The position numbers and the translations under genes are program-made. Below the pieces are notes generated by a model. The model had not been told where the DNA came from, did no database searches, and saw only the letters and a program-made list of their open reading frames with translations. Positions 17,435-29,837 of a stretch of 64,000 bases of DNA are shown here, piece after piece (positions within the stretch are counted from its first letter, which is position 1; each line of letters starts with the position of its first letter). This DNA comes from Bacillus sp. J37 (GTDB taxonomy: Bacteria; Bacillota; Bacilli; Bacillales; Bacillaceae): the NCBI RefSeq assembly GCF_000518865.1, contig NZ_KI912515.1:62001-126000 (forward strand), given 5' to 3'.

Positions 17435-18762
17435 ATGTTTGGCTACTCAATGATTCAAATGGTTCATACTCATGCAGACAAGATGGACCAGCCATTAAGA
17501 GAACAGATTTTAAACCTTTATGAGCCACTAAAATATACACCAATATTTTTTCACAAGACCATAGAAGAAATGATTAAAAGCAAAAAGAAGGTACCGGTTA
17601 TTATTGAATTTGAACAGGATCAATATGATAAGGGCTGTGAAGAATTAAATGGAACGATCCAAAAATGCCCTAATAGTCATATCAGACAGAATTTCCCAAG
17701 GGTATCATGTAGTAGTGTTGACCTTACACCAAATACGTTAGGGGAATTACTCACAACTTGTCATGGTATTAAAAGAATTCACTTAAACAGTGAAGTTCGT
17801 GCTTTATTAGATGTAGCAGTGCCATCGGCAAATGCCAAAAATGTAGTTAGAAATAACACTGTATTAACCGGAAAAGGAGTCAAAATTGCCATTATTGACA
17901 CAGGCATTTATCCACATGAAGATCTGAAAGGAAGAATTACTGACTTCGTTGATTTCGTTAATGGCCGGACAGATCCGTATGATGATAATGGCCATGGAAC
18001 ACACTGTGCAGGTGCAGCTGCAGGAAATGGCGCGGCTTCATCGCAAAAGTATAGAGGGTCGGCTCCTGAAGCTGATTTAGTTGGTATAAAAGTATTAAAT
18101 AGCATAGGATCAGGTTCTCTTGAATCGATTATGCAAGGAGTGGAATGGTGTATTCAATACAATGAGCAACATCCTACAGACAAAATTGATATCATGAACT
18201 TATCTCTAGGTGCGACCACTCAAGCGTACAGTAATGAAAATAAAGATCCTATGGTTCAAATGGTTGAAGCTGCATGGCAGGTATTGTTGTTTGTGCTGCA
18301 GCAGGGAATGAAGGACCTGAAAGTCAAACAATTGCTAGTCCTGGAATAAGTGATCAAGTCATTACGGTTGGAGCATTAGATGATCGAAACACTGCTAGCA
18401 CTAAAAAGGATGATGTGATTGCCGGCTTTTCAAGTCGAGGTCCAACTATTTACGGAGTCGTTAAGCCGGATATTGTTGCTCCAGGTGTTAATATTGTCTC
18501 CTTAAGATCACCTAATTCTTATTTAGATAAGTTTCAAAGAGCAAACCGGGTTGGGCAAGCATACTTTACGTTATCAGGGACATCAATGGCTACTCCGATT
18601 TGCGCAGGTGTCGTTGCCTTAATGAAACAGCAAAATCCGTCCTTACCACCACAAAAGATTAAACAGTTATTAAAAAAAGGCGCAGATTTTTGGAAGGGAA
18701 GAGATCCAAATATATATGGAGTAGGATATATTAATGCGGAAAAATCCATTCCTAAAAGATAA
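17435..18762 (+). pseudogene. aprX: subtilisin-like serine protease AprX, frameshifted
   Basis: An S8-family intracellular protease split across two frames. The first part (17435-18349) holds the N-terminal region, catalytic Asp155 (IDTGIYPH) and His about 187 (DDNGHGTHCAG). The second part, open from before 18274 to 18762, holds the oxyanion-loop region (VVCAAAGNEGP) and the catalytic Ser at 18582 (GTSMATP). Together they cover the whole of B. subtilis AprX, collinear to the last residues. The frame changes around GCATGGCAGG at 18271-18281: one base (or four, to match the usual W-x-A-G spacing) is missing. It is either a genuine inactivating deletion or a sequence error; everything else is intact. 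RBS is GGAGGTGC. Confidence 0.85.
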
Positions 18763-26458: not shown

Positions 26459-27301
26459 ATGGATAAACAACTGGCTGTAGTAACAGGAGCATCAAGTGGG
26501 TTTGGGTTATTAATTTCTCTGGAGTTTGCGAAAAAAGGCTTTTATGTTATTGCGACAATGAGGGATATAAAGAAACGATTCATGTTGATAGAGGAAGCTG
26601 AGCGTTATGGAATAAGAGATGATATTGAAGTATTCCCATTAGATGTAACGTCAAAGGATTCCATTGATCAATGGAAAGATTTTATCAACTCAAAAGGTCG
26701 AATTGATGTTCTTTTGAACAATGCCGGTTTTGCCGGAGCAGGATTTGCTGAAGAAGTTTCGCTTGAAGAATATCGTCAACAGTTCGAGACAAACTTTTTT
26801 GGAGTTATTGGGGTGACACAGGCCATATTACCAATGATGAGAAAGCAGGGGAGGGGGAAGATTATAAACATGAGCAGCATTAGTGGACGTGTTGGCTTCC
26901 CGGGTCTATCTCCATATGTTTCCTCCAAGTATGCACTTGAAGGATGGAGTGAATCGCTAAGGTTGGAGCTCAAACCATTTGGGATAGATGTTGTCTTAAT
27001 AGAACCTGGCTCCTATCAAACAAGTATCTGGACCAGTGGTAAACAGATAACTGATAAATCGTTACATAAAGATTCTCCGTATTATAAAGTAATGACAAAA
27101 CTGGAGCAGTATATTGAAAAAGGATCCGCTTCATTTGGTAATCCTTCTGATGTATCCAGATTTGTTGCATCAATTGCAGTGAAAGAGGGGACATCATTAC
27201 GATATCCAATAGGGAAGGGAGTTAAATCTTCTATTCTATTAAAAACAATTTTACCCTGGTCATGGTTAGAAAAATTCATTCTAAAAAAACTGATGAAATA
27301 G
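26459..27301 (+). CDS. short-chain dehydrogenase/reductase
   Basis: A 280-residue NAD(P)-dependent oxidoreductase of the classical SDR family. It shows TGASSGFG (cofactor), DVTSKDS, NNAGFAG, the catalytic Ser in MSSISGR and YVSSKYALEG (Tyr-x3-Lys). The ATG at 26459 is chosen because GGAGG lies 5 nt upstream; the frame continues upstream without support. The RLELKPFGIDVVLIEPG segment is typical of SDRs acting on lipids or steroids, but the substrate is unknown. Followed by a terminator. Confidence 0.9.
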   Translation: MDKQLAVVTGASSGFGLLISLEFAKKGFYVIATMRDIKKRFMLIEEAERYGIRDDIEVFPLDVTSKDSIDQWKDFINSKGRIDVLLNNAGFAGAGFAEEVSLEEYRQQFETNFFGVIGVTQAILPMMRKQGRGKIINMSSISGRVGFPGLSPYVSSKYALEGWSESLRLELKPFGIDVVLIEPGSYQTSIWTSGKQITDKSLHKDSPYYKVMTKLEQYIEKGSASFGNPSDVSRFVASIAVKEGTSLRYPIGKGVKSSILLKTILPWSWLEKFILKKLMK

Positions 27302-27473: not shown

Positions 27474-27620
27474 TGTTTACAGAGTTGTATACATGTACAC
27501 AAAACGTATACTTGATGTATACAAACCTGTTTACTTGTATACAAACATGAATGCATAGCGGTTTAATAGGATGTATACAATTTTGTTTCGGGTGTAAACA
27601 AATTCGTAAACATGTATTCA
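27474..27620. repeat. candidate parC centromere: octamer array in three 28-bp triads
   Basis: Eleven copies of an octamer close to TGTATACA lie upstream of the parM-like gene. Nine form three identical layouts of octamer, 4 bp, octamer, octamer: 27474/27486/27494, 27516/27528/27536 and 27593/27605/27613. Single copies lie at 27505 and 27572. Five are exactly TGTATACA; the others differ by one or two bases. Direct repeats placed before an actin-like/ribbon-helix-helix gene pair are the normal form of a type II plasmid centromere and of autoregulation by the DNA-binding partner. Function here is inferred. The rest of the 27339-27717 gap holds the promoter region and nothing else recognisable. 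Confidence 0.75.
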
Positions 27621-27717
27621 TATTGAACACATCGAAAGTATGATTGACGCTCTTACCCCATCCCCTTACTCTTGAAGTAGTAGAATTAATATTCATTTTT
27701 AGGAGAGGGATGGTTTT

Positions 27718-28890
27718 ATGAGTAAAACAAGAATAACAGCTGTTGATGTTGGTAATGATTGCGTGAAAGCTCTGTTTGGAAAAGGAGATTACGAATTATA
27801 TATTCCTAACGTCATTGCGAGAGACACAGAAGATCGCCCTGTCATAGGTATAGAAGAGTTAAATGAAAAGAACCCTTTAGATGGTATTCATATTAGAGTT
27901 CACTCCCCTGCCCTTAAAGAGAACAATGCGATTTATCGGGTAGGGAACTTAGCAACGAAAAGCGATAATCCAAGTGAGTTGGATCCAGGCAGCAGCAAGT
28001 CTGAGGAAGATCAAACACTTGTCATGCTTTTTACTTCATTAGCATTGGATGCTGTACGTGAAGAAAACAGCAATATTTTCAAAAAGACAAATAATGTCAT
28101 TGATGCAAATTACACACTTGGGACAGGCTTGCCACTTCGTGAAGTGAAAGAAGGAAAAGATGTAGGGTATCGTTCACAATTATTAGGCTCTGTTCATCAG
28201 GTGGAATTTCTAGTAACGCCAAAGTACCAGGGAATAAAGGTTAATATTAAGTTTGATGAAGTAAAAGTATATCCTGAAGGGTTTGCGGCTTATATTAATC
28301 TGGTGATGGACAAGGATTTAAAAATCATCAATCGTGATTTAATAGATAAGCAGATTTTAATTCAAGATATTGGTGGTTTATCAACAGATGTTGCGGTGAT
28401 TAAGAATCGAAATGTTGATGATGATAAAGCACAAGGCTTTAATTTAGGTGTTTCAGAATCATTAGAAGCGATAAGAGAAGAAATTCGAACAAAGCACGGA
28501 GTTGAGCTTGATAGCCGCCGTGATGTTGTGGATATTATTACAAGAAAAAATGACCGACATCATATAATGGTAAAAGGAAGCCGTACAAATGTCCATGACA
28601 TTACAGACCGCATTCTTCTTGAACTGGCAAAGAAACAATACCGTCATCTTCGTAATGTTTGGCAAAAAAACTCCCAAACTGAAATCTGCTATTTCGTTGG
28701 AGGAGGATCTATTGTTTTAAAAGAGTATATTAAGATGTTAAATAATAGTTTAGATGGCTATAATATTGAATTCTTTGAAGATGAAAAGGAAAGCATCTGG
28801 ATGATGGCGAACGCATACTATAAATTAATATCTGACTTTGTTAGAAAAACAAGTGAACCACAAAAGAAAAACGAGAAGCAAACAGTCTAA
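27718..28890 (+). CDS. ParM/StbA-like actin homologue
   Basis: A 390-residue actin-fold ATPase. Phosphate-1 motif is AVDVGNDCVKALFG (about 8-21), phosphate-2 is QDIGGLSTDVAVI (about 222-234), and the adenosine motif is CYFVGGGSIVLKEYI (about 324-338), with a C-terminal helix and basic tail. It matches the ParM/StbA and Alp-type plasmid segregation group rather than MreB or FtsA. Polymers of such proteins push or pull DNA bound by a partner; here the partner is the next gene, 19 bp downstream. AGGAGAGGG precedes the ATG. Finding it in a chromosomal context among housekeeping genes is unusual. Confidence 0.88.
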   Translation: MSKTRITAVDVGNDCVKALFGKGDYELYIPNVIARDTEDRPVIGIEELNEKNPLDGIHIRVHSPALKENNAIYRVGNLATKSDNPSELDPGSSKSEEDQTLVMLFTSLALDAVREENSNIFKKTNNVIDANYTLGTGLPLREVKEGKDVGYRSQLLGSVHQVEFLVTPKYQGIKVNIKFDEVKVYPEGFAAYINLVMDKDLKIINRDLIDKQILIQDIGGLSTDVAVIKNRNVDDDKAQGFNLGVSESLEAIREEIRTKHGVELDSRRDVVDIITRKNDRHHIMVKGSRTNVHDITDRILLELAKKQYRHLRNVWQKNSQTEICYFVGGGSIVLKEYIKMLNNSLDGYNIEFFEDEKESIWMMANAYYKLISDFVRKTSEPQKKNEKQTV

Positions 28891-28909
28891 AACAAATTAA
28901 GGTGGTTAC

Positions 28910-29506
28910 ATGAATAAAAAGGGTGCACCAACAATAAAAAGGGGACAAGCTATTACATTTCGCCTTCCATCTGATACACCTGATCATCTTATAAAACAGT
29001 TGGAAAAGCTTAAACAAACTGAAAAACGAAACTTTTCAAGTAAAATCGCAGAATTTGTTTTAGAAGGCGTTGGAAGCTCCTTAGCAAAGGATAGAGAAAT
29101 GATTAGTCTACCAATGCCCAAGCATTTATCAAAAGATCAGCGGAATTGGTTGAAACATTCACACTCAGAAGCATTGCTGGGAAGTATTGTCTATCAAATT
29201 TTATCAGATCCCGTAAGAGCAACTTCTATTTTGGCTTCATTAACAAGTAATGCGTTGGATATTGATGAAGCATTGTACTTGCAGGAAGTGGATATTGATG
29301 GAAATCAGGACCTTGAACAGGTAGAAATCGTTGAGTCGGCAAAACCTGAAGAAGAAGAGATTCCAAGTCTTGACGATGATGATATAGTAGACTTTGATTT
29401 TGACAGAATAGAAAGAGAGCTTGCATCTACTAAAGAGGAGGCTCAAGAGGAATCAGAAGATATGGAAGATCTTCTGGGGGACTTTTTAGCAAAAATGAAT
29501 AAATAA
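28910..29506 (+). CDS. ParR-like DNA-binding adaptor protein
   Basis: A 198-residue protein whose N-terminal 50 residues (ITFRLPSDTPDHLIKQLEKLK, then NFSSKIAEFVLEGV) look like a ribbon-helix-helix DNA-binding fold. The second half is strongly acidic (EEEEIPSLDDDDIVDFDFD) and ends with a short amphipathic helix (MEDLLGDFLAKMNK) of the kind that contacts the actin filament in ParR proteins. Sequence similarity to known ParR families was not evident by eye; the call rests on fold pattern, size and position in the parM operon. RBS is AAGGTGG. Confidence 0.72.
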   Translation: MNKKGAPTIKRGQAITFRLPSDTPDHLIKQLEKLKQTEKRNFSSKIAEFVLEGVGSSLAKDREMISLPMPKHLSKDQRNWLKHSHSEALLGSIVYQILSDPVRATSILASLTSNALDIDEALYLQEVDIDGNQDLEQVEIVESAKPEEEEIPSLDDDDIVDFDFDRIERELASTKEEAQEESEDMEDLLGDFLAKMNK

Positions 29507-29580: not shown

Positions 29581-29610
29581 TTGACAGAAATATTGGGAAA
29601 ATAATACAAT
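29581..29610 (+). promoter_or_regulatory. sigma-A promoter of the bmrCD leader
   Basis: TTGACA (29581-29586) and TACAAT (29605-29610) with an 18-bp spacer, about 40 bp before the leader peptide start. Confidence 0.75.
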
Positions 29611-29651
29611 GAAGCAAGATCATATTTTTAACAGAATTGGAGGGTTACAAA

Positions 29652-29732
29652 ATGGAAAATGTAATGATGAATAAACCATTAAAAATTTCATATTGTAAAG
29701 TGACCCGCCAACAACAACGTTCATTTTTTTGA
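29652..29732 (+). CDS. leader peptide of the bmrCD-like operon
   Basis: A 26-codon frame behind a GGAGGG site, ending with the motif RQQQRSFF just before the stop. Its last third (29700-29708) is complementary to the left arm of the following terminator, so ribosome position can choose between antiterminator and terminator. B. subtilis bmrCD is known to be controlled by ribosome-mediated attenuation in the leader gene bmrB; this peptide is shorter but sits in the same place. Confidence 0.7.
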   Translation: MENVMMNKPLKISYCKVTRQQQRSFF

Positions 29733-29758
29733 AAACTTTTTTGGTAACGTTTATTCCT

Positions 29759-29793
29759 AACGCAGGTCACGATTATCGTGATGTGCGTTTTTA
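29759..29793 (+). terminator. first attenuator of the bmrCD-like operon
   Basis: Outer arms AACGCA (29759-29764) and TGCGTT (29784-29789) enclose TCACGAT/ATCGTGA (29767-29773, 29775-29781), followed by a T-run. The segment GCAGGTCAC (29762-29770) can instead pair with GTGACCCGC (29700-29708) inside the leader peptide, with one mismatch, which would undo the terminator. Confidence 0.78.
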
Positions 29794-29805
29794 TATTGTT
29801 TGATC

Positions 29806-29837
29806 AGGTATTATGCACACTCGCATAATGCCTTTTT
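29806..29837 (+). terminator. second attenuator of the bmrCD-like operon
   Basis: AGGTATTATGC (29806-29816) pairs with GCATAATGCCT (29823-29833) with one G-T pair, followed by TTTTT. A second full terminator before the transporter genes. Confidence 0.75.

Follow-up and report, generated by a model that had tools for sequence, protein, structure and literature searches.

A parM-parR cassette with a predicted parC-like octamer array in the origin region of Bacillales chromosomes

The stretch of DNA analysed here (the window) comprises 64,000 nucleotides of contig NZ_KI912515.1 of Bacillus sp. J37 (assembly GCF_000518865.1, positions 62,001 to 126,000). Within the window, an SDR gene ending at 27301 is followed by an intergenic stretch of 416 bp, by genes for an actin-like ATPase (parM) and a partner protein (parR), and by an ABC transporter gene pair from 30008 (Table 1). 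A previous reading of the sequence (the original prediction) had reported the two open reading frames (ORFs), with the same coordinates as found here, as a type II cassette with a centromere-like array of octamers upstream.

Table 1. Positions in the window of the cassette, its upstream array and their parts
Feature	Position	Strand	Basis
parM, actin-like ATPase, 390 amino acids	27718..28890	+	Pfam, PHROG 691, invariant nucleotide-site residues
parR-like partner, 198 amino acids	28910..29506	+	Adjoins parM in 81/81 loci; tblastn to plasmid gene after parM
parC-like array (predicted), 12 degenerate TGTAWACA octamers	27474..27620	.	Sequence reading, site table, shuffles, conserved layout
Array octamers 1-8, one helix face	27474..27555	.	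Computed phases
Array octamers 9-12, phase-shifted group	27572..27620	.	Computed phases
ParR residues 9-60, predicted ribbon-helix-helix-like DNA-binding part	28934..29089	+	AlphaFold2 secondary structure
ParR residues 185-198 (MEDLLGDFLAKMNK), conserved C-terminal tail, proposed ParM hook	29462..29503	+	Conservation in relatives

The octamers of the array start at 27474, 27486, 27494, 27505, 27516, 27528, 27536, 27548, 27572, 27593, 27605 and 27613 (offsets 0, 12, 20, 31, 42, 54, 62, 74, 98, 119, 131 and 139). Compared with TGTATACA, four are perfect, four have one mismatch, and four have two mismatches. The 416-bp intergenic stretch was set against 5000 Markov shuffles. Perfect copies number four, against 0.02 expected and a shuffle maximum of 2, and copies with no more than one mismatch number eight, against 0.41 expected and a maximum of 3. 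When two mismatches are allowed, there are 14 copies, against 3.9 expected and a maximum of 13, and the four two-mismatch octamers are therefore individually weak. Across the whole window an excess is unclear (40 matches with no more than one mismatch against 31 expected, with 9 of 100 shuffles reaching 40). Since the octamer is near expectation window-wide, only the upstream cluster is unusual.

Octamers 1 to 8 have a mean spacing of 10.6 bp (74/7) and deviate by no more than 1.5 bp from a common 10.5-bp phase, that is, on the same face of the helix with one octamer per turn; octamers 9 to 12 are 2.5-5 bp out of phase with this first group. Three triads (27474-27501, 27516-27543 and 27593-27620) share the spacing 8+4+8+8, but their letters differ. 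The original prediction had placed the octamers correctly while counting eleven of them rather than 12 positions, and of its three identical 28-bp triads it is the layout that is common, not the letters. The starts of the first two triads are indeed 42 bp apart, and the claim that this order could not be due to chance agrees with a cluster lying beyond all of the shuffles.

Conservation of the array was investigated through a scan of named genomes, in which 417 loci encode a ParM relative; the best 80 of these, together with the window's own, make up the 81 loci compared here. At least seven octamers are present in the 400 bp upstream of parM in 79 of the 81 loci (median 13), whereas control windows drawn from these loci (754 in all) average 0.95 octamers and never exceed 5. 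When the 12 offsets of the window serve as a template, 7-12 positions are occupied in the 78 other array-bearing loci (median 11). The average for sites placed at random is 6.0 of the 12, and 71 of the 78 loci are above the random 95th percentile for layout fit. The letters of individual octamers drift and the ladder layout is kept across loci. A repeat array beside the operon, as looked for in a parC site, is present.

A strict triad motif, with no more than two mismatches, was also sought in 34 genomes, 33 of which are in four contigs or fewer. It has 109 matches, 103 of them within 2 kb of parM, and occurs at the genome's own parM locus in 31 of the 34 genomes; the reversed-pattern control has 10 matches in total. 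There is therefore essentially one centromere-like site per chromosome.

Second octamer arrays are present in some genomes. These are 1-2 kb upstream of parM in G009 (L153), G367 (L155), G327 (L156) and G014, the distance being about 1-1.3 kb in the first three, while in G044 (L154) the second array is 0.7-0.8 kb downstream of parM, close to where parR ends. In G014 a decayed second parM (G014:C1:5477673-5478949; 49-59 % identity, numerous stops), accompanied by octamer arrays, lies beside the intact cassette, which reads as a sign of a past tandem duplication.

ParM of the window matches Alp7A_like_C (8.9e-39), MreB-like_C (4e-13) and ALP_N (6.1e-9) above the Pfam cut-offs, as well as PHROG 691, 'partition protein' (4.3e-42). 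The Pfam ParM model is slightly under its cut-off (24.8 of 27.4 bits), and NCBIfam models, including that for plasmid ParM, match below cut-off only, the ParM model far below. Residues D10, G12, N13, D217, G219, G220, T223, D224 and G328-G330 are invariant in 27 aligned ParM relatives, and we take these to be the actin-type nucleotide-site motifs. The Pfam and PHROG matches and these putative nucleotide-site residues identify an actin-family ATPase of the ParM type. Five sequences in the PDB match it at E ≤1. The window belongs to a Metabacillus genome: the protein is 100 % identical to ParM of Metabacillus halosaccharovorans DSM 25387 and of an M. niabensis strain, and the closest ParR is likewise from M. 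halosaccharovorans (97 % identity).

In all 81 loci parR directly follows parM, starting 9-23 bp downstream. No Pfam, PHROGs or NCBIfam family matches the window ParR at a meaningful score; by tblastn its N-terminal half (residues 9-128) has 30-39 % identity to the gene that follows plasmid-borne parM (13 records). Secondary structure prediction for residues 9-60 gives an extended stretch followed by helices 25-37 and 42-60, and in the AlphaFold2 model, with a mean predicted local distance difference test score (pLDDT) of 63.4, block means are 71-85 for residues 11-50. Among 59 ParR sequences, residues 9-60 and the middle helical part are kept, followed by a variable acidic linker and a conserved tail, in which L189, F192, M196 and N197 are invariant and L188, G190, L193 and K198 are conserved in at least 90 %. 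A profile over 81 sequences likewise places the conserved C-terminal tail past the variable acidic linker. In plasmid ParRs, a DNA-binding head is joined through a flexible arm to a short tip, which attaches to the end of the ParM filament. By analogy, the window ParR appears to parallel this head, arm and tip, its DNA and ParM contact functions being putative.

The place of the cassette relative to dnaA was determined in 57 chosen ParM-bearing genomes that are in few contigs, a subset of all such genomes. The two genes are on the same contig in 56 of these (on different contigs in G335), and in all 56 parM is upstream of dnaA, by 34.2-286.7 kb (median 93.1 kb), and on the opposite strand. Transcription of parM is therefore directed away from dnaA. 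In genomes of the Bacillales type the replication origin is usually at dnaA; if this is so here, parM is transcribed in the same direction as the replication fork travels. Outside the order, the cassette of G585 is 50.6 kb from dnaA, while G659 was not included in the distances because its contig start is not dnaA. In the genome of the window, dnaA and parM are on separate contigs, and the distance is represented by relative G005, which has a 100 % ParM match (126.9 kb).

The genes around the cassette are variable. Besides ParM and ParR, the most frequent family in the surrounding 8 kb or so is shared by 19 of the 81 loci, and htrA-like and rlmH genes are within 8 kb in 6-7 of them. The SDR gene adjoins the array also in six genomes of the same genus. 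Outside the genus it is at least 351 kb from dnaA (median 1646 kb) in 28 of 28 measured genomes. This set leaves out G335; 12 of the 28 distances rest on genome sizes rounded to 100 kb, and SDR paralogy is possible.

Three order-wide searches were made, on the same 397 genomes as far as these are listed. The ParM family is present in 201 of the 397 sampled genomes, the window's included, and in 56 of 136 genera, with a best E ≤7e-201 in all 201. Together with its place on the dnaA contig, this makes it a lineage-conserved ParM of the main chromosome. Within the window's genus, 13 of 20 genomes have ParM, including one that is split and one that is partial at a contig edge, and a class-wide sample of 398 genomes added eight, which belong to two families of other orders. 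None of the ten sampled genomes of genus g6, called B. subtilis-like from a RacA match above cut-off in all ten, has ParM, an absence that would account for the cassette having gone unnoticed in the usual model organism; laboratory strain B. subtilis 168 is not known to carry it. Likewise, G221, which is Priestia megaterium by its SpoIIE, is without ParM.

Pairwise comparison of 20 genomes (190 pairs) gives median identities of 0.840 for DnaA, 0.812 for ParM and 0.561 for ParR, and ParM distances follow those of DnaA (Mantel r 0.709, reached in 0 of 5000 permutations). Ratios of non-synonymous to synonymous substitution (dN/dS) were sought for eight pairs and are 0.006-0.018 for ParM (four measurable), 0.067-0.348 for ParR (five) and 0-0.039 for DnaA (eight). 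Both genes are open reading frames in all 81 loci. In 72,556 plasmid records there are matches in 37 and no ParM copy of at least 60 % identity, the top-ranked being 43 %; in 50,697 phage records there is no match. As far as the sequences tell, the cassette forms a chromosomal lineage passed on mainly by vertical descent.

It could be argued that the cassette is what remains of a mobile element or integrated plasmid and has no role on the chromosome; the original prediction had proposed a plasmid remnant, though one kept for a chromosomal role. Plasmids are the best-known carriers of type II systems, and related ParMs do occur on the 37 plasmid records. However, a leftover is contradicted by the spread through the order, with the same side of the origin in every genome placed, by purifying selection with ParM dN/dS near that of DnaA and frames that have stayed open, by the lack of a close plasmid or phage copy, and by a motif nearly exclusive to the locus. 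Around the window cassette, no replication, transfer or integration gene was found among the 14 neighbouring proteins scanned, about 9 kb to either side (2 of the 14 have no Pfam match at the limits used, and shorter ORFs were outside the scan), nor is there a break in base composition (GC 0.33-0.41 across 20-38 kb). A remnant is therefore very improbable. The original prediction had described a type II cassette with a centromere-like array on a chromosome, free of replication and transfer genes, and this description holds for the neighbours scanned; its question as to whether the locus is always chromosomal is addressed by the 56 genomes, out of 57, in which it shares a contig with dnaA, and by the plasmid records. 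Its other suggestion, a chromosomal role in DNA positioning, is the one that the evidence favours, the locus being close to the origin in every genome measured.

Plasmid relatives of ParM have 40-43 % identity in the 20 listed of the 37 records, and their carriers include B. methanolicus pBM69 and plasmids of Peribacillus and Paenibacillus; three plasmid cassettes were read in detail. These Alp7A-type systems have the same gene order as the window cassette and a related N-terminal half of ParR. In contrast, in the three cassettes read, ParR is 143-149 amino acids with another C-terminal tail, against 198 in the window, and there are 1, 3 and 4 TGTAWACA-like octamers, against about 12 in the chromosomal cassette. 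From these low numbers, the chromosomal lineage has probably expanded its array, and the plasmid relatives are likely to be the source of this kind of system. The alp7 system itself is that of B. subtilis pLS20; carriage on a plasmid, the mark of Alp7A and AlfA, does not apply to the chromosomal cassette.

On the Paenibacillus plasmid pPPKN03045 (L160), four TGTATACA-type octamers are arranged as two pairs with 12-bp spacing, approximately 50-100 bp before parM, and surround promoter-like hexamers identified by eye. This may be a shorter form of the array that serves as an operator as well.

These plasmid octamers, within 100 bp of the parM start codon and near a possible promoter, support an explanation in which the array is an operator only. 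ParR would then repress its own operon, and ParM filaments would serve cytoskeletal, membrane or protein positioning without DNA as cargo. Yet the 12 sites, the conserved 147-bp layout and the helical phasing exceed the needs of an operator, and three plasmid relatives have so few octamers that the longer chromosomal array is probably an expansion. In some species there are second arrays upstream or downstream of parM, and the origin-bound position would be left unexplained. The operator-only explanation is unlikely, although it keeps a small chance of being correct.

The plasmid relatives also suggest action in trans, whereby the chromosomal ParM and ParR stabilize resident plasmids, or destabilize them through competing parC sites. 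The shared gene order, the ParM identity and the octamers of the Paenibacillus plasmid are consistent with this. Against it, the strict motif is at the cassette's own chromosomal locus in nearly all of the genomes scanned, the ParR tails of the three plasmid cassettes read differ from the chromosomal tails, and neither conservation close to that of DnaA nor a place bound to the origin would be expected of a plasmid-facing trait. Action in trans is thus quite improbable.

Chromosomal ParMs have been reported previously. In the part of the article available, those of Desulfitobacterium hafniense and Clostridium botulinum are characterized, and Bacillus tropicus cParMR-1 and -2 are listed, with Bt-cParM described as common to several Bacillus chromosomes by conservation (Ali et al., 2025; PMC12270681). 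The accessions of the two B. tropicus ParMs are WP_001968526.1 (Bt-cParM1) and WP_000025611.1 (Bt-cParM2). The kind of system is therefore already known, and the statement in the original prediction that type II systems belong to plasmids was too strong. Like the window cassette, these cParCMR systems consist of a ParM-type actin and a neighbouring ParR and are chromosomal and lineage-conserved. They differ in that the similarity is very weak (E 0.1 for Dh-cParM1) and in that the available text describes neither an origin position nor a cross-genus array, 'oriC' occurring in the main text only within the reference list (Ali et al., 2025; PMC12270681).

Other known systems share single traits with the cassette. 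In parMRC of the Staphylococcus plasmid pSK41, according to the portion of the source available, 10-bp direct parC repeats are directly 5′ of parM-parR, as the array is in the window, and ParR, bound there as a dimer of dimers, makes an extended segrosome (PMC4911067). That system is plasmid-borne and its repeats are direct, whereas the window has palindromic octamers in an 8/12-bp ladder, and the five PDB entries matched by the window ParM do not include that of pSK41. ParABS (Soj/Spo0J/parS), as presented in the accessible part of PMC7333895, also joins a centromere-like site near the origin to a DNA-binding adaptor and an ATPase, but has a ParA-type Walker ATPase and another site in place of an actin; ParB-family genes coexist with the ParM cassette in the same genomes. 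In the literature searched, which covered few subscription papers, there was no report of an origin-bound, single-centromere, order-wide ParMRC lineage with a longer ParR. What appears new here is the origin-bound place, the architecture of the array, the form of ParR and the breadth of the lineage, to which the B. tropicus cParMs may or may not belong.

The presence of the cassette on the same side of the origin, within 290 kb, in all 56 genomes placed points to a likely role in moving or positioning the chromosome origin. With modest confidence, the sequence comparisons favour a parC-parM-parR cassette with open frames that is kept in the origin region, where ParR would bind the array and couple it to ParM filaments that move sister origins. 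ParR dimers would bind the octamers at about one per helical turn and build a nucleoprotein scaffold, a platform that would resemble the extended segrosome of pSK41 as the available part of that source presents it (PMC4911067). From this platform the C-terminal tail of ParR, on its variable acidic linker, may contact the end of a ParM filament. The locus would be duplicated early in each round of replication, giving two parC complexes, and filaments growing between or from the two sites near the origin could push apart or hold the sister origins. ParR would be expected to regulate its own expression at the array. Since the same genomes have two ParB-family genes, the cassette would work in addition to ParABS, and its absence from many species suggests an aid rather than a necessity.

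The lineage bears the marks expected of a chromosomal centromere, namely about one site per genome, a place close to the origin, a conserved architecture, selection near that on DnaA and coexistence with the ParB family. With it, the question of chromosomal ParM function becomes directly testable in cultivable Bacillales, one carrier being Alkalihalophilus pseudofirmus OF4 (L052). More tentatively, and with somewhat less than even confidence, the cassette may constitute a second, actin-driven centromere in the Bacillales, in which ParM spindles at a single parC near oriC separate sister origins, possibly above all at sporulation. If so, it would be the first type II system with the host chromosome as its cargo.

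A function mainly in sporulation, with the cassette moving or anchoring the origin region at asymmetric division, is a further alternative. RacA and Soj/Spo0J act on the origin region at this division in B. subtilis. None of the 16 SpoIIE-lacking genomes has ParM, compared with 201 of the 381 SpoIIE-bearing genomes (Fisher 9e-6, uncorrected for kinship). However, the 16 represent just seven genera, with genomes of 2.5-3.8 Mb, and 180 of the 381 are without ParM. Nor is there an association with RacA-like proteins (118 genomes with both, 83 with ParM only, 105 with RacA only and 91 with neither; p 0.31), and the cassette is therefore not a substitute for RacA. A mainly sporulation-related function is improbable.

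Several observations weigh against a role of the cassette in moving origins. The array is directly upstream of parM, as an operator would be. The 81 loci favour close relatives, since the named ones were the best-matching of those found. The AlphaFold2 model of ParM (mean pLDDT 45.8) is too poor to judge the closed beta-barrel subdomain, and a structure search with the ParR model recognized no fold and was uninformative. The rank correlation of ParM with DnaA is modest (0.31). In 22 of the 56 genomes, those with a listed spoIIE position, this core gene is 70-85 kb from dnaA on the side opposite to the cassette; the order of genes around the origin is thus generally stable, and the place of the cassette may partly reflect old vertical inheritance. 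Two ParB-family genes are present in all 57 genomes investigated for them, namely the window's genome and the chosen ones other than G190. Of the 397 genomes of the order, 196 have no cassette, nor do 7 of the 20 in the genus, and in G007 parM is split into two open frames (G007:C1:2501785-2502953; residues 1-245 and 237-390), possibly a recent loss within the genus. With close relatives lacking it and parM split in G007, the cassette is dispensable.

Elsewhere in the window, a subtilisin-like protease, recognized by eye, is divided between two ORFs that overlap in different frames (17435-18349 and 18274-18762); the frameshift that this suggests is either true or from a sequencing error. Ahead of the ABC transporter pair there is a strong promoter-like pair, TTGACA-18-TACAAT (29581-29610), followed by a 26-codon ORF found by eye (29653-29733; MENVMMNKPLKISYCKVTRQQQRSFF) and, 5′ of the transporter genes, by terminator-like hairpins at 29766-29782 and 29806-29833. 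By analogy, the region 29581-29833 looks like a leader-peptide attenuator, for which bmrB-bmrCD of B. subtilis is a precedent.

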